Assembly: GCF_025972045.1 (NCBI RefSeq)
Contig: NZ_JAPDHX010000005.1
Coordinates: 186,001-250,000 of the forward strand
DNA: 64,000 nucleotides
Direction: 5' to 3'
Source of the DNA: Micropruina sonneratiae
Lineage (GTDB): Bacteria > Actinomycetota > Actinomycetes > Propionibacteriales > Propionibacteriaceae
The notes under the pieces are model-generated. The model was not told the DNA's origin and ran no database searches. It saw nothing but the letters and a program-made list of their open reading frames with translations. This document shows, piece after piece, positions 32,889 to 38,785 of this stretch. A program made the translations under genes and the position numbers. How positions within the stretch are numbered: the stretch's first letter is position 1; the number at the start of each line of letters is the position of its first letter.

Positions 32889-33728
32889 ATGGACCGGCGC
32901 AGCGACGACCGTTACGTCAAGGACTCCACCTGGGCGACCCTGCCCGCCGTGCTCCTGGGGCTGTCGGCGATGTTCTTCCTGGTCTTCCGCGAACCGTTGG
33001 CCGGTACGTTCATGCTGGCCTCGGGTGTCTTCGGCGCCTGGTTGTGCGACTTCACCACCCTCTCCGACGGCCTGCTGCCCGACCTGACCGCGGTGGCGTC
33101 CGGGATCATCGTGCTCAGCCTGTCCGACCTGGCCGCCGACCTGTCCGACGCGGGCATGGTCCGGTTCACCGTGGTGCTCTCAGCGGCGCTGATCGTGCCC
33201 TACGTGCTGGTGCGCTGGGTGTTCCGTCGTGACCCGATCGTGTTCCCGTGGGGCGGATGGCGGTGGAACCGTGCCCAATGGACCTACCTGGGGGTAGTGG
33301 TGGTGGCCGGCTACCTCATCCTGCCGTGGTATTTCCTGAGCACCGGGGTCTACCAGAACTGGCCCGCGATCCACACCACCGACGAGGTGGCCCGGCTGTT
33401 CATCGGGGTGAACGCGGTCGGCATCTGGGACGAGCTGTTCTTCATCTGCACTGTGTTCGCCCTCTACCGGCGGCATTTCAAGCTGTGGCAGGCCAACCTG
33501 CTGCAGGCCATGATCTTCGTGTCGTTCCTGTGGGAACTCGGCTACCAGTCCTGGGGGCCGCTGCTGACCATCCCGTTCGCGCTGGTGCAGGGCGCGATCT
33601 TCCAGCTCACCAAGAACCTCGCCTACGTCATCACCGTGCACCTGCTGTTCGACGTGGTGGTCTTCCTGGTGCTGCTGCACGGCCACAACCCCGAGTGGCC
33701 GACAATTCTGCTCACCCCGGCCGGCTGA
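32889..33728 (+). CDS. CPBP-like intramembrane protease family protein
   Basis: A 279-residue membrane protein with about eight helices. GIWDELFFICTVFALYRRHF near residue 180 resembles the CPBP motif but with Asp-Glu where EE is usual. ALVQGAIFQLTKNLAYVITV and VHLLFDVVVFLVLL near the C-terminus supply the conserved His and an Asp. The Arg normally following EE-x3 is absent (FFICT), so proteolytic activity is doubtful. The start follows a leaderless hexamer and it is divergent from ligD. I infer no partner. Confidence 0.65.
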   Translation: MDRRSDDRYVKDSTWATLPAVLLGLSAMFFLVFREPLAGTFMLASGVFGAWLCDFTTLSDGLLPDLTAVASGIIVLSLSDLAADLSDAGMVRFTVVLSAALIVPYVLVRWVFRRDPIVFPWGGWRWNRAQWTYLGVVVVAGYLILPWYFLSTGVYQNWPAIHTTDEVARLFIGVNAVGIWDELFFICTVFALYRRHFKLWQANLLQAMIFVSFLWELGYQSWGPLLTIPFALVQGAIFQLTKNLAYVITVHLLFDVVVFLVLLHGHNPEWPTILLTPAG

Positions 33729-33737
33729 CGGCTCCCG

Positions 33738-34271
33738 TCAGGCCGCGACGAAGAGGGCCAGCACGGCGGTGTCGGCGTCCTCGTAGGGGTCGATGCCGGC
33801 CCGGCTGACCATGCGGGTGATGTTGCCGCGGCGGTCGGCCTCGACCCAGGCCGCCCGGTGCTCCAGGCCCAGGTGCGGAATGCCGGGCAACAGCACACAA
33901 CCGGCGGCCACGTCGTCGGAGTCGGGCAGCGACGGCCGGATCTCGTTCGGCGGGTGCAGCACGATCAGGCCCGGCGGCTGGTGACGGGCGAACTGGCCCG
34001 GGGACACCGCGTTCTCGCCCAGTACCGGCCCCTCGGCCAGAACCAGCCCGACCGCCCCGGGCACCGGTTCGTCGGGCAGCTCCTCACGCACCCGGAACAC
34101 GGTGCTGGTGGGCAGCATCCCTGGCACGGTCGCCATCCGCACCGCGAGCAGCAGGAACCGTGCCCATTCGACGGTGTTGGCGGGCCAACGGCCGGAGACC
34201 AGGAACCCGCCCAGCCTGCCCTGGGCCTGGAAGGGGGACACCTCGACAGGGAGATCCTCTGGCTCGTTCAC
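33738..34271 (-). CDS. conserved hypothetical protein, 177 residues
   Basis: A soluble, mildly acidic protein with no family I can name. Visible features are GRLGGFLVSGRWPANTVEWA near the N-terminus, RFLLLAVRMATVPGMLPTST as one long helix, a Pro-rich middle (ARHQPPGLIVLHPPNEIRPS) and a C-terminal ITRMVSRAGIDPYEDADTAV. A GTG start was chosen because GGAGGAGGCG stands before it. The gene converges with the CPBP-like gene (stops nine bases apart) and is divergent from DUF6421. Confidence 0.6.
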   Translation of the reverse strand: MNEPEDLPVEVSPFQAQGRLGGFLVSGRWPANTVEWARFLLLAVRMATVPGMLPTSTVFRVREELPDEPVPGAVGLVLAEGPVLGENAVSPGQFARHQPPGLIVLHPPNEIRPSLPDSDDVAAGCVLLPGIPHLGLEHRAAWVEADRRGNITRMVSRAGIDPYEDADTAVLALFVAA

Positions 34272-34374
34272 GTCGCTCGCCTCCTCCACCCAACCACCGG
34301 TTCCGTCATGGTGAATCACGGGCTGGCTAGCACACAAGCCCCCTCGAGTGCCAACCCTCAACCGTTACCTGAAC

Positions 34375-34390
34375 GGAACGCAGACGTTCC
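34375..34390. promoter_or_regulatory. perfect palindrome GGAACG-CAGA-CGTTCC
   Basis: Six paired bases around a four-base centre in the AT-rich region before the DUF6421 gene. It may be an operator; the binding protein is unknown. Confidence 0.45.
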
Positions 34391-34428
34391 GAGGTCAAAA
34401 CGAGACCGTAATATTTGTCGTCAAACAT

Positions 34429-34445
34429 GGTTGTAACGAACAACC
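34429..34445. promoter_or_regulatory. perfect palindrome GGTTGT-AACGA-ACAACC
   Basis: Six paired bases around five, 68 bases before the DUF6421 start. With the palindrome at 34375 it gives two distinct operator-like sites in one 240-base promoter region. Confidence 0.45.
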
Positions 34446-34512
34446 AAGCGTCATCTTGGCGAAACGGACGTCGATACTTCCGTTTCCAGCGAGCATCATG
34501 TGAGAATCAGCC

Positions 34513-35889
34513 ATGACAACCGTCGTCGAACCCGTCGTGTCGGAGCTCACCCAGCACCCCGCCTGGCTCCGGATCAAGGACGCCGCCACCGCACTCCAGA
34601 CCCTGCAATCGGCCACCGGCGCCGTGGACGATGCGGCCTCGCACGATCGGGCCGCCGCCCTGGTCGGCGACCTGACCGCCGGCATCGCCGAACTGGCCCC
34701 GCTGTTCCCCCACGACGCCGGCTACCTGGACGCCGTCCGCGTCGACTTCGACCGCTGGGCCACCGACGGCTTCGGCGAACCCGACTTCCACGACTCACTA
34801 GTCGCGTTCCAGCCGCAGCTCGACCGGGTCGACGGGCTGACCCACCTGATCGTCTTCCCGATGTACACCCAGAACGGCTCGCGCAGCCGGTTGGTCGAGG
34901 CCGTGCTGGTGCAGGTGATCTGGCCCGACTTCGTGGCCGACCTCGAGGCGTCCGAGTTCAGCAACAAGCTGTTCGTGCCGATCCGCTTCCTCGACTTCAC
35001 CGCCGGCTACGACACCAACTCGGCGGTGCTGTTCCCCGAGACCGTGGCGATGCGGCAGCTGCCGACGTTCACCTGGGGTGCGATCTTCGCCGACCGCGAG
35101 GCGGCGCGGTTCCGCCGGGTGGTGCGCGCCGCGGTCGAGGTGACCAAGTTGGACCTGCCCGCCGAGGCGGCCGAGTTGCTCGACGACCAGTCGCTCACCG
35201 AAGAGACCTTTGTGATGTGGGATCTCATCCACGACCGCACCCACATGCGTGGCGACCTGCCGTTCGACCCGTTCATGATCAAGCAGCGGATGCCCTTCTT
35301 TCTCTATTCGCTGGAGGAGTTGCGCTGCGACCTGACCGCGTTCCGCGAGGCGTCCGCGATCGACCGCCGGGTCGCTGCGCTGAGCGAGCCCTCCGCCGAT
35401 GACGTGGCGCTGGCCCACCACGCCCGGCTGGTGCAGTACTGCGTGATCTTCGACCGGATCTTCCGTTTCGCGATCACCGGCAGCCGAGTGCGCAACTACG
35501 ACGGCCTGGGCGGACAGTTGCTGTTCGCCTGGCTGCACCAGCATCACGTGCTGCACTGGACCGACACCCGGCTCGCCTTCGACTGGGAGCAGGTGCCGGA
35601 CTGCGTGAACGCCCTGGGCGCCGAGATCGAGCAGCTCTACTGGCGCTCGATCGACCGGCCCAAGATCGCCCACTGGCTGGCCGCCTACGAACTCGTCGCC
35701 GGCACGCTCGAGCCGCACCCGGCGTCCGCCTGGAAGGCCGGTGACCTACCGCTGACCGGGCTGCCCCGCGAGCTCACCGACAAGGTGCTCGACGACGAGT
35801 TCCCGCTAAGCATGTTCTACGAGGCGTTCGAGAAGAAGATGCGCGACGTCATCGCCTCCACCTCGGGCATCACCGGCGTGGACGCCTGA
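34513..35889 (+). CDS. DUF6421 family protein
   Basis: A 458-residue soluble protein recognised as DUF6421, an actinobacterial family of unknown function usually encoded just before a short-chain dehydrogenase, as here. Notable blocks: LTHLIVFPMYTQNGSRSRLV, FVPIRFLDFTAGYDTNSAVL, FPETVAMRQLPTFTWGAIFA, and WDLIHDRTHMRGDLPFDPFM followed by SLEELRCDLTAFREA. The His-rich HDRTHMRGD with a Glu 30 residues on looks like a metal site, but this is inference. ATG 34513 follows GAGAATCAGCC. The SDR gene overlaps its stop by one base. Two palindromes upstream suggest tight regulation. Confidence 0.8.
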   Translation: MTTVVEPVVSELTQHPAWLRIKDAATALQTLQSATGAVDDAASHDRAAALVGDLTAGIAELAPLFPHDAGYLDAVRVDFDRWATDGFGEPDFHDSLVAFQPQLDRVDGLTHLIVFPMYTQNGSRSRLVEAVLVQVIWPDFVADLEASEFSNKLFVPIRFLDFTAGYDTNSAVLFPETVAMRQLPTFTWGAIFADREAARFRRVVRAAVEVTKLDLPAEAAELLDDQSLTEETFVMWDLIHDRTHMRGDLPFDPFMIKQRMPFFLYSLEELRCDLTAFREASAIDRRVAALSEPSADDVALAHHARLVQYCVIFDRIFRFAITGSRVRNYDGLGGQLLFAWLHQHHVLHWTDTRLAFDWEQVPDCVNALGAEIEQLYWRSIDRPKIAHWLAAYELVAGTLEPHPASAWKAGDLPLTGLPRELTDKVLDDEFPLSMFYEAFEKKMRDVIASTSGITGVDA

Positions 35890-36461
35890 TGCGGGTGGTG
35901 ATCGCCGGCGCGGGCAGCGCGCTGGGGGACGCCACCGCCGCCGCTCTCCGGGCGGCGGGCCACGAGGCGATCGAGGTCGGGCCCGAGCAGTGCGATCTGC
36001 GCGACTTCGCGGCGGTGCAGGAACTGGCCGCCGAACTGGGCGCCGTGGACGGCGTGGTCCACCTGGTCGGCGGCTGGCGCGGCGGCGGTGGCCTGGCCGG
36101 CCAGACAGACGAGGACTGGGACTGGCTGCAGACCATGCTGGTCGGCACCCTGCGCAACACGACCCGCGCCTTCGTGGACGCCGTCGGCGCCGCGCCTGCC
36201 GGCCGGTTCGCGATCGTCTCGCAGGCCGGGGTGGCCCGGCCGACCGCGGGCAACGCCAACTACCTGGCCGCCAAGGCGGCCGCCGAGACCTGGCTGCTGG
36301 CGGTCGGGCACGCGCTGCGCGACACCCCCGCCACGGTGCACGTCGAGCGGGTGGTGGCGCTGTATTCCGACGCCGATGCGGCCGCCTACCCCGACCGGGA
36401 TTTTTCGCGTCACACCCATGTCGACGAGCTCGGCGGCCGCCTCGCGGCGCTGTTCGACTGA
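35889..36461 (+). CDS. short-chain dehydrogenase/reductase partner of DUF6421
   Basis: A 190-residue Rossmann enzyme, short for the SDR family (usually about 250). The cofactor loop is MRVVIAGAGSALGDATAAAL, LVGGWRGGGGLAGQTDEDWD follows strand four, IVSQAGVARPTAGNANYLAA contains the catalytic Ser and Tyr, and KAAAETWLLAVGHAL the Lys. So the triad is intact while the substrate loop and C-terminus are reduced. It overlaps the DUF6421 stop by one base, so the two are made as a pair. The reaction is unknown. Confidence 0.8.
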   Translation: MRVVIAGAGSALGDATAAALRAAGHEAIEVGPEQCDLRDFAAVQELAAELGAVDGVVHLVGGWRGGGGLAGQTDEDWDWLQTMLVGTLRNTTRAFVDAVGAAPAGRFAIVSQAGVARPTAGNANYLAAKAAAETWLLAVGHALRDTPATVHVERVVALYSDADAAAYPDRDFSRHTHVDELGGRLAALFD

Positions 36462-36506
36462 GCCGGCGAAGAGTTCTCCCCTGGTGCAAACCACCGTGTC
36501 AAAGGT

Positions 36507-36523
36507 GTCACCCGGTGGGTGAC
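36507..36523 (+). terminator. hairpin GTCACC-CGGTG-GGTGAC
   Basis: A perfect 6-bp stem with a five-base loop, 46 bases after the SDR stop. It could terminate the DUF6421-SDR transcript; no U-tract follows. Confidence 0.4.
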
Positions 36524-37080
36524 GCAGCGCTGGTGCAGATGCCCGGGCTTGGATTTAGTTTTCCTAAAATAGTCACCTTCAACGACTACGTCGAGACCCA
36601 CACCGACATCACCTACTCGGGGTTCCTGTTCGCGTCCGTGCGCGTCACGGTCACCCCCGGGCAGTCCTACGACCTGCAGTACCACGTCGGCACCGAGGTG
36701 TTCACCAGCACCGCGGCCGGCCAGTACTACCGGCTGCTCGGTGCGGCCCTGGTCACCGAGCAGCGCAGCTCGTACTCCGAGCCGGCACCCTGAGCCAGGC
36801 CGGTAAGACCCGCCCGGTGCACGCTTCGGCGACGGTCTACGACGGTGGCGTGAGCGGGGACGGCTCGACACAGGCCGCGACCCCGACGCCCACCCTGTCT
36901 GAGAGCACCTCCCAGACCCCGAGCCCGACTCCGAGCGTGACCGGCAGCACGCCGGCCACCTCGCCGACGACGAGCTCCCCGACCCCGCCGCCCGGCGATG
37001 GCCAACTGCCGCAGACCGGCACGGAGGCCAACCCCCTCGGTGTCGGCGTCGGCGTGGGGATCCGGGTGCGCCCCCGGATC
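36515..37080 (+). pseudogene. decayed LPXTG-type surface protein, C-terminal part
   Basis: One frame (36515-36793) gives FSFPKIVTFNDYVETHTDIT, then FLFASVRVTVTPGQSYDLQY and ends at a stop. A second frame continues the sense: TLSQAGKTRPVHASATVYDG, a Thr/Pro/Ser-rich stalk (TPTLSESTSQTPSPTPSVTG), and DGQLPQTGTEANPLG. LPQTG is a sortase sorting signal, but the hydrophobic helix and basic tail that should follow are lost; the text turns into arginine-rich nonsense and runs in frame into the next gene. At least two frame breaks are needed, so this is a remnant of a cell-wall anchored protein. An intact sortase is not in the window. Confidence 0.65.
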
Positions 37081-37128
37081 GCCACACCCCTAGCCAGGCC
37101 CCGTTTCCAGCGGTGGCGCAGGCGGTGG

Positions 37129-37134
37129 CAGGAT
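37129..37134 (+). promoter_or_regulatory. probable -10 hexamer CAGGAT of a leaderless transcript
   Basis: CAGGAT, six bases (GGCCGG), then the GTG of the threonine aldolase at 37141. The same hexamer and gap precede the LacI gene at 48562. Confidence 0.55.
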
Positions 37135-37140
37135 GGCCGG

Positions 37141-38199
37141 GTGCAACTCCATGATCCGGCCAGGCGCGGTTTCGCCAGCGACAACTACTCCGGCGTCCAC
37201 CCCGAGGTGCTGGACGCCCTCGCCGACGCCAACGGCGGACACCAATCCTCGTACGGCAACGACGCGTACACCGCCCGGCTGGCCGAGGTGGTCCGAGGAC
37301 ACTTCGGTGAGCAGGCGGAGACCTTCCCGGTGTTCAACGGCACCGGCGCCAACGTCACCGGCCTGCTGTCGGTGCTGCCGCGCTGGGGCGGGGTGGTGTG
37401 CGCGAAGAGTGCCCACATCAATGTCGACGAGGGTGGCGCGCCCGAGAAGGTAGCCGGCCTCAAGCTGTACCCGGTGGACACCCCCGACGGAAAGCTGACG
37501 CCGGAGCTGCTGGACGAACAGGCGTGGGGGTTCGGCGACGAGCACCGGGCGCAGCCTCTGGCCGTGTCCATCACCCAGTCCACCGAGCTCGGTACCCTCT
37601 ACACCCCCGACGAAATCGCCGCGCTCACCGAACACGCGCACGCCCTCGGCCTGGCGGTGCACGTGGACGGCGCCCGGCTCTCCAACGCGGCCGCCGCGCT
37701 GGGCGTCGGCTTCGCCGCCTTCACCACCGACGCCGGCGTCGACTTGGTCACCCTCGGCGGCACCAAGAACGGCGCGATGGGCGCCGAGGCAATCGTGGTG
37801 CTCGACCCCGAGCGCTGCCACGGCCTGACGTTCCTACGCAAGACGCACATGCAACTGGCCAGCAAGATGCGCTTCGTGTCGGCCCAGCTGGTCGCGCTGT
37901 ACGAGGGTGACCTGTGGCTACGCAGCGCCAGCCACGCGAACGCCATGGCGGCCCGACTGCGGGCGGCGGTCGAGAATGTCGACGGCGTTGAGTTCGCCTA
38001 CCCGACCCAGGCCAACGGCGTCTTCGCCCGGCTGCCGGCCGGGGTCGCCGACGTGGTGCGGCAGCGGTTCTTCTTCTACGACTGGGACGCCGCGGCCCGC
38101 GAGGTGCGCTGGATGTGCTCCTTCGACACCACCGAGGCCGACGTGGACGCCTTCGCCGCTCTGATCCGGCAGGCCTGCGCACGGGCCGTGCAGGGTTGA
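37141..38199 (+). CDS. ltaE: low-specificity L-threonine aldolase
   Basis: A 352-residue PLP enzyme of the beta-eliminating lyase group that splits threonine or allo-threonine into glycine and acetaldehyde. FASDNYSGVHPEVLDALADA, SSYGNDAYTARLAEVVRGHF and FNGTGANVTGLL form the N-terminal part; LAVHVDGARLSNAAAALGV carries the Asp that pairs with PLP; and LVTLGGTKNGAMGAEAIVVL has the Schiff-base Lys. The GTG start was chosen because the conserved protein begins there and a leaderless hexamer precedes it. The longer in-frame start includes the surface-protein remnant. A perfect 15-bp hairpin follows its stop. Confidence 0.93.
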   Translation: MQLHDPARRGFASDNYSGVHPEVLDALADANGGHQSSYGNDAYTARLAEVVRGHFGEQAETFPVFNGTGANVTGLLSVLPRWGGVVCAKSAHINVDEGGAPEKVAGLKLYPVDTPDGKLTPELLDEQAWGFGDEHRAQPLAVSITQSTELGTLYTPDEIAALTEHAHALGLAVHVDGARLSNAAAALGVGFAAFTTDAGVDLVTLGGTKNGAMGAEAIVVLDPERCHGLTFLRKTHMQLASKMRFVSAQLVALYEGDLWLRSASHANAMAARLRAAVENVDGVEFAYPTQANGVFARLPAGVADVVRQRFFFYDWDAAAREVRWMCSFDTTEADVDAFAALIRQACARAVQG

Positions 38200-38235
38200 T
38201 CCACATCGGGCACCGAACTCGGTGCCCGATGTGGA
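38200..38235. terminator. perfect 15-bp hairpin between converging genes
   Basis: TCCACATCGGGCACC (38200-38214) and its exact reverse complement (38221-38235) flank a six-base loop. It starts right after the ltaE stop and ends seven bases before the stop of the convergent YbaK gene. It is the strongest terminator candidate in the window and should act on both strands. Confidence 0.85.
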
Positions 38236-38242
38236 CCGACAC

Positions 38243-38785
38243 TCAGCCGACGTCGCGGGCCAGGTCGTCGACCCGCTCGGCGCCGGGCAGCGACAACAAT
38301 CCGCTGACCGGGATGAACAGCTTGGAGTGCCGCACGCCCGAGCCGATGCAGACCCAGTCGCGGTCGGCGACGGCGCCGTCGACCCAGACCGGCCAGCCCT
38401 CGGGCAGCCCGACGGGGTTGATGCCGCCGTACTCCATGCCGGTCGCCTCGACCGCATAGTCCATCGGCGCGAAGGACGCCTTGCGGGCGTCGAGGCGGCG
38501 GCGGATGACGCCGTTGACGTCGAGCCGGCGGTGGGCCAGCGTCATGCAGCACGCGTGCCGCTCGACGCCGGCCCGGGTGCCGCGCACGATCACCGCGTTC
38601 GCCGAGGCGTCCATCGGCACGCCGTAGTGGGCACACAGCTGCTCGGTGTCGGCGTGGGCCGGGTCGATCTCGGCCACCAGCGCCTCGGGGATGAGCCCGA
38701 TCGCCGCCGCCACCGGCGGCGCCAGCAGGTCGGGGCGCTGCGCGGCCGGCACGGCGTCCAGGGTTCCGAAGAGGGTGTCGGTCAT
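38243..38785 (-). CDS. YbaK/EbsC family aminoacyl-tRNA deacylase-like protein
   Basis: A 180-residue protein of the YbaK/ProX superfamily, which hydrolyses mischarged aminoacyl-tRNA (for example Cys-tRNA-Pro) or a related ester. Seen: TEQLCAHYGVPMDASANAVI, HACCMTLAHRRLDVNGVIRR, VEATGMEYGGINPVGLPEGW with the conserved Gly-Gly-x-x-Pro-x-Gly, and SGVRHSKLFIPVSGLLSLPG. The ATG at 38785 was chosen because CAGGAT lies seven bases upstream; an ATG nine bases earlier is in frame. It converges with ltaE across a perfect hairpin and is divergent from a GNAT gene. Confidence 0.85.
   Translation of the reverse strand: MTDTLFGTLDAVPAAQRPDLLAPPVAAAIGLIPEALVAEIDPAHADTEQLCAHYGVPMDASANAVIVRGTRAGVERHACCMTLAHRRLDVNGVIRRRLDARKASFAPMDYAVEATGMEYGGINPVGLPEGWPVWVDGAVADRDWVCIGSGVRHSKLFIPVSGLLSLPGAERVDDLARDVG

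Follow-up and report, generated by a model that had tools for sequence, protein, structure and literature searches.

Gene content of the locus

We investigated a locus of Micropruina sonneratiae lying in a 64,000-nt stretch of DNA (NCBI RefSeq assembly GCF_025972045.1, contig NZ_JAPDHX010000005.1, positions 186,001 to 250,000 of the forward strand), hereafter called the window, whose first letter is position 1 of all coordinates given below. A gene for a DUF6421 protein is followed on the same strand by genes for a short-chain dehydrogenase/reductase (SDR) and for an enzyme resembling L-threonine aldolase, which would depend on pyridoxal phosphate (PLP). The three genes and their conserved codons are:

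34513..35889, + strand: DUF6421 protein, putative Fe/pterin-dependent oxidase of the PolE kind; 458 aa; PF19985, E = 2e-234
35230..35316, + strand: codons of the metal motif H240-D241-x-x-H244-x23-E268; invariant in 30/30 aligned sequences; fits the published HE/DxxHx(21-23)E
35889..36461, + strand: short SDR, probable pterin recycler resembling quinonoid dihydropteridine reductase (QDPR); 190 aa; Pfam adh_short, E = 5.8e-9
36069..36077, + strand: SDR codons G61-G62-W63; G 100, G 100, and W 99 of 100 sequences
36261..36275, + strand: SDR codons Y125-x-x-x-K129; Y and K in 100/100
37141..38199, + strand: PLP enzyme resembling L-threonine aldolase, the third cassette gene; PF01212, E = 4.6e-45

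The aldolase start, a GTG at 37141, was chosen by homology within a frame open from 36817. A preliminary description of this DNA had treated the first two genes as a pair sharing one base. The open reading frames (ORFs) of DUF6421 and the SDR do have base 35889 in common, and the one-base overlap recurs in two relatives of the genus (loci L040 and L043). The pairing is conserved, but the set has three members, the gene at 37141-38199 having been missed.

Conservation of the three-gene set

DUF6421 was sought in 394 genomes of the class and is present in 104, counting that of the window; gene order was compared in 112 DUF6421 loci, drawn from 108 genomes and not including the window. Of these loci, 103 have the SDR gene downstream in the same orientation (within 200 bp in 98), 97 have the aldolase, and 94 have both. 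The proposed pairing of DUF6421 with the SDR is confirmed as a conserved feature and is not lost in most genomes; but the two genes are two-thirds of a three-gene cassette. The nine loci that miss the SDR include one at a contig end (L044), one with a broken gene (L150), two with short divergent DUF6421 homologues (L103 and L112), and one divergent locus (L151); in L068, L069, L136, and L145 the SDR seems genuinely absent. A second set came mostly from genera that we take by name to belong to Microbacteriaceae and Micrococcaceae: in its best 80 loci listed, at least four of them shared with the 112-locus set, the SDR was found in 73, the aldolase in 55, and both in 53 (4.5-kb flanks).

Co-occurrence by genome was observed after scoring the seven best SDR candidates of each genome against a subfamily threshold of at least 168 bits. 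DUF6421 and the SDR subfamily occur together in 98 genomes, DUF6421 alone in six, the SDR alone in seven, and neither in 283 (n = 394), and the aldolase family (E up to 1e-90) is present in 101 of the 104 genomes with DUF6421. Eight of the 15 loci without a nearby aldolase have one elsewhere on their contig, at a distance of 5 to 105 kb; at six loci (L058, L059, L060, L062, L063, and L066) the SDR stays beside DUF6421 with the aldolase 5 to 25 kb off. Four genomes (G185, G226, G252, and G311) keep DUF6421 and the aldolase with the SDR subfamily gone. Apart from four genomes taken up below, those with the SDR alone are G123, in whose copy the Trp of GGW and the Lys of YxxxK are missing, G186, which keeps GGW and has its aldolase elsewhere, and also G178. 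DUF6421 itself occurs in 39 genomes of one genus in the class sample and in 18 families, and its remaining neighbors vary between families.

In genomes without DUF6421, SDR-aldolase pairs lie at loci L238, L242, L243, and L244, where the SDR retains GGW or GGY; the SDR of the G310 type reads HLVGGYRGG.

The DUF6421 protein resembles PolE

PF19985 matches the window protein with 778.6 bits (gathering cut-off 25) over model positions 1-436 of 437, and in PDB the protein finds SnPolE and SmPolE (best E = 1.1e-9 by sequence, 7.3e-13 by profile). PolE, a DUF6421 protein reported in October 2025, is described in the main text of that report as an L-Ile desaturase strictly needing Fe(II), O2, and tetrahydrobiopterin (BH4) and sped up two to three times by added QDPR (PMC12614342). 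The same main text gives HE/DxxHx(21-23)E as the motif common to the PolE family, counts about 10,000 relatives, mostly annotated DUF6421, with one pathway described, and states that many members colocalize with putative amino-acid-modifying enzymes; the terms "SDR", "short-chain dehydrogenase", and "threonine aldolase" do not occur in it (PMC12614342). The preliminary description had called the reaction undescribed. For the family this no longer applies, its chemistry being known since 2025 according to that main text (PMC12614342); for the core subfamily it stands as far as the literature searched goes, and neither the cassette nor a QDPR-like reading of the SDR is described there.

The metal motif consists of HDRTH (H240, D241, H244), 23 residues, and E268, and is invariant in all 30 aligned sequences (one to three per genus); the His-based metal site proposed earlier is thereby borne out, no loss of His or Glu conservation being seen. 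A structure prediction, which had been suggested as a check at HDRTHMRGD, gave a model with a mean predicted local distance difference test score (pLDDT) of 88.3 (below 50 at residues 247-255 beside the motif). The model matches SnPolE and SmPolE (9j2e, 9j3g, and related entries) with Z = 28.3-28.8 over 362-366 residues, the next fold being dipeptidyl-peptidase III (DPP III) with Z = 16.5. Two SnPolE residues mutated in deposited entries, F140 and Y280, align with F174 and Y329 of the window protein, both invariant in 30/30 (equivalences read from the printed alignment). PolE and the window protein thus share fold, metal motif, and aromatic residues; they differ in length (373 aa in the SnPolE chain vs 458), are 15-16 percent identical over the fold alignment, and the window gene stands beside an SDR and an aldolase. 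Motif and predicted fold fit an Fe/pterin-dependent oxidase of the PolE kind, which the window DUF6421 protein would be.

The relatives at L103 and L112 are short and divergent (383- and 419-aa open frames) and occur in genomes that hold the core cassette as well. Within about 5 kb of either, neither an SDR nor an aldolase was found; they are perhaps PolE-like biosynthetic copies. Because several open frames with DUF6421 extend to about 700 aa, we considered a DUF6421-SDR fusion, which was rejected, as no SDR match was found in the frame of DUF6421 in the 112 loci; we take these for long open frames of GC-rich DNA.

The SDR is probably a pterin recycler

Pfam assigns the SDR to generic SDR and NAD-binding families alone, with adh_short best. 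Its model (pLDDT 97) has only SDRs among the 50 VIA matches listed, and both the YxxxK motif and the Rossmann fold of a classical SDR are present. Classical SDRs use a catalytic Asn-Ser-Tyr-Lys tetrad, and this tetrad is not kept in the family. In an alignment of 100 sequences (the window and 99 of the 103, four short ones left out), position 112, which lies 13 before the Tyr where the classical Ser stands, is A in 62, S in 24, Q in 12, T in one, and G in one, so that Ser is lost in 76/100; position 84, aligned with the classical Asn, is L in 76, I in eight, F in eight, V in five, A in two, and C in one. QDPR, too, is not known to have the classical SDR Ser.

Segment searches point weakly to the same enzyme. 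A profile of the GGW segment retrieved eight PDB sequences (E up to 5), among which the sole SDRs are the dihydropteridine reductases 8b5t, 8b5u, and 1ooe (E = 0.07-0.92); a shorter GGW profile retrieved a single PDB match, QDPR 8b5t (E = 0.85); and the C-terminal segment retrieved 32 PDB sequences with rat dihydropteridine reductase (1dhr, E = 1.1) as the sole SDR. The window SDR shares with QDPR (8b5t, 1dhr, 1ooe) a GGW loop aligned with 8b5t, a weak C-terminal loop match to 1dhr, YxxxK, and, in much of its family, the missing Ser; it differs in having just 190 aa, in its 22 percent identity to 8b5t, and in that QDPR is not singled out over the full length. Of the SDRs in the 394 genomes that fall outside the subfamily, the nearest (G107, G291, and G416) score about 104 bits, and the remaining SDR-like ORFs in the examined loci at most 53. 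The C-terminal loop of these outgroup SDRs finds a dihydropteridine reductase in each of its seven best PDB matches (E = 6e-10 to 1e-5). On these sequence grounds, the SDR is a probable dedicated, QDPR-like pterin recycler.

One of the three outgroup SDRs, a bacterial QDPR-like protein at L248 5064-6841 (LVGGYAAG, DTPANRRSMPDADFSRW), adjoins a gene for a FolE-like GTP cyclohydrolase, the latter named by eye.

The third gene and the predicted product

The aldolase family profile has L-threonine aldolase 5vye as its best PDB match, full-length and with 388 bits. Residues K209, D176, R179, and R323 are invariant in 29/29 and aligned with 5vye; we take K209 to be the PLP lysine and the other three to have catalytic roles. 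The window enzyme thus keeps the PLP Lys, Asp, and Arg of L-threonine aldolases (5vye and others) and differs from them in its operon context with a putative Fe/pterin oxidase. The GntG-type aldolase of guanitoxin biosynthesis is matched in part (NCBIfam NF041359, 68.8 bits vs a cut-off of 230), and the window protein is not a member. GntG cleaves an amino acid that an Fe oxygenase has beta-hydroxylated, which is also the logic we propose for the window cassette. Because threonine aldolases require a beta-hydroxy-alpha-amino acid as substrate, hydroxylation of the beta-carbon is predicted for the core DUF6421 proteins, unlike PolE; from this gene context we infer that they are probably beta-hydroxylases rather than desaturases.

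Proposed reaction sequence and alternatives

We propose, with about even confidence, that the three genes form a cassette for amino-acid oxidation with pterin recycling and retro-aldol cleavage. In the first step, DUF6421 would bind Fe(II) through H240, H244, and E268 and use O2 and a tetrahydropterin to oxidize an amino-acid side chain, which we regard as very likely by analogy, since its relative PolE acts in this way on L-Ile. In the second, the SDR would use NAD(P)H to return quinonoid dihydropterin to tetrahydropterin; this choice of substrate, suggested by the loops and the missing Ser, we hold to be somewhat better than an even bet. In the third, the PLP aldolase would cleave the oxidized, probably beta-hydroxylated amino acid to glycine and an aldehyde; here, where the coupling to the aldolase is what we infer, the chances appear evenly balanced. 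The broader proposal that the cassette is a new and widespread actinobacterial pathway, with Fe/tetrahydropterin beta-hydroxylation by an enzyme other than the aromatic hydroxylases, a dihydropteridine reductase encoded by the next gene, and a threonine aldolase yielding glycine and aldehyde, is tentative and at present rather unlikely to hold in full.

A number of observations weigh against this sequence of reactions. At 15-16 percent identity, the substrate of PolE is not transferable to the window DUF6421 protein; SnPolE Y157, also mutated in deposited entries, aligns with an Ile (I191); and the product of PolE is, in the main text of its report, an alkene and not a beta-hydroxy acid (PMC12614342). 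The loop matches of the SDR family to dihydropteridine reductases are weak (E = 0.07 to 1.1): five unrelated non-SDR sequences rank above these enzymes in the GGW-segment search, and 29 of the 32 C-terminal-segment matches are ferredoxin-NADP reductases. Over the full length, QDPR ranks 11th in the profile search, ranks fourth in Foldseek among near-tied SDRs (22 percent identity to 8b5t), and is not among the 50 VIA matches listed; the full-length profile of the outgroup SDRs has no QDPR in its best 60. The aldolase family (E up to 1e-90) also occurs in 57 of the 290 genomes without DUF6421. Four genomes without DUF6421 (G095, G310, G366, and G427; 87 to 98 percent complete) have the SDR directly before the aldolase, and no PF00351 aromatic amino acid hydroxylase was found in these four. 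Pterin-4a-carbinolamine dehydratase is found in 84 of the 104 genomes with DUF6421 vs 222 of the 290 others (P = 0.41).

Two candidates related to pterin metabolism were dropped. The dehydratase shows no association and is not retained as a cassette partner, and the PF00351 hydroxylase, considered as another client of the SDR, was found in 1/12 genomes searched (G226, itself without the SDR).

These four SDR-aldolase pairs without DUF6421 are the best argument for a different role of the SDR, in which SDR and aldolase together process the carbon skeleton, the SDR for example reducing the aldehyde that retro-aldol cleavage releases or oxidizing a beta-hydroxy amino acid, and other reductases recycle the pterin. 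The Escherichia coli serine dehydrogenase 3asu, which we take to be YdfG, at rank 4 among the SDR profile matches, and the four genomes that hold DUF6421 and aldolase without the SDR subfamily, speak for the same role. The residues speak against it, as the Ser of carbonyl-reducing SDRs is missing in 76/100 and the aligned Asn position is hydrophobic, and so do the loops, which resemble those of dihydropteridine reductases, and the six loci at which the SDR stands beside DUF6421 with the aldolase 5 to 25 kb distant. We consider such a role possible, though doubtful. That the cassette makes a specialized product, with a PolE-like desaturation of an aliphatic amino acid by DUF6421 and its tailoring by the SDR and aldolase for a natural product, is improbable: PolE serves polyoxin biosynthesis, and the main text of its report anticipates unusual amino acids as products of the family (PMC12614342), but the presence of DUF6421 in 39 genomes of one genus and in 18 families, with neighbors that vary by family, fits core metabolism better, and it is the short divergent L103 and L112 that have neither partner within about 5 kb. 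A DPP III-like zinc peptidase, DPP III being the next fold match (Z = 16.5), is very improbable, given that PolE structures match far better (Z about 28.7) and that DUF6421 conserves neither the HExxGH motif nor the catalytic His of DPP III (main text of PMC12614342), the window protein having HDRTH. The oxidation-recycling-cleavage sequence is the reading we prefer over these.

Upstream DNA, intergenic DNA, and neighboring genes

The DNA around the genes contains the following elements:

34374..34391, no strand: palindrome 1, CGGAACG-CAGA-CGTTCCG; core GGAACG-CAGA-CGTTCC at 34375-34390, extended by one base pair
34428..34446, no strand: palindrome 2, TGGTTGT-AACGA-ACAACCA; core GGTTGT-AACGA-ACAACC at 34429-34445, extended by one base pair
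34461..34486, no strand: third inverted repeat, imperfect, 11-nt arms, 91 percent complementary
34499..34508, + strand: TGTGAGAATC block conserved in the genus, ending 4 nt upstream of the ATG; unchanged in 3/5 congeners (L042, L043, L044)
36507..36523, + strand: hairpin GTCACCC-GGT-GGGTGAC 3′ of the SDR gene

Both palindromes lie where the preliminary description had placed them (34375-34390 and 34429-34445), in upstream DNA that is AT-rich as it had said (49 percent G+C at 34375-34512 vs 71 percent in the whole window), and the hairpin that it reported after the SDR is likewise present at 36507-36523. Three perfect 7-bp inverted repeats occur in 202 bp vs 0.07 expected, a number reached in 0/1000 shuffles, and at least two occur in 12 of the 632 overlapping 202-bp pieces of the window. 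With two mismatches allowed, neither pattern is over-represented in the whole window (palindrome 1: five vs 5.6 expected; palindrome 2: two vs 1.2). Upstream of DUF6421 in five congeneric genomes, exact arms of palindrome 1 and of palindrome 2 were found in 0/5. The whole 3.5-Mb genome holds one exact copy of the palindrome 1 pattern and two of the palindrome 2 pattern, and hence there is no regulon. The conservation that the preliminary description had proposed to look for is therefore absent, and the palindromes are ruled out as a conserved operator: they exceed local chance, yet are not a conserved part of the cassette.

The TGTGAGAATC block, which has a single base change in L041 and in L040, may be the -10 element of a leaderless message. 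An inverted repeat, GTTGGCAC-N14-GTGCCAAC, lies between DUF6421 and the divergent gene in 3/5 congeners (L040, L042, and L043, with altered arms in L042) and is degenerate in the window (34320-34360); to our eye it resembles the CIRCE element, presumably with one spacer base more. The divergent gene itself (33738-34361, - strand) has no Pfam or NCBIfam match, and a relative of it lies upstream of DUF6421 in 4/5 congeners.

The hairpin at 36507-36523 is not among the entries of the terminator scan, and Rfam at gathering thresholds gave no match in 33500-38500. Between the SDR and the aldolase, at 36691-37052, lies the remnant of an LPXTG (LPQTG) surface-protein gene, whose reading frame runs on into the aldolase; its counterpart in congener L043 is a 260-aa open frame (69 percent DNA identity over 222 bases). 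Close to the cassette, three lineages have genes of aminoacyl-tRNA editing or synthetase type (B3/4, tRNA_edit, tRNA-synt_1b; L072 1263-1955, L146 8032-8583, and L118 4081-5226). These genes might protect the cell from misusing an unusual amino acid, a chance association being possible as well.

Significance

The conserved SDR and aldolase point to a cofactor partner and a product class for the common core DUF6421 members. If the proposed sequence of reactions is true, bacteria would possess an enzyme dedicated to pterin recycling in a setting other than aromatic hydroxylation, and the cassette would convert an amino acid to glycine by a new route, with a possible use in making beta-hydroxy amino acids.

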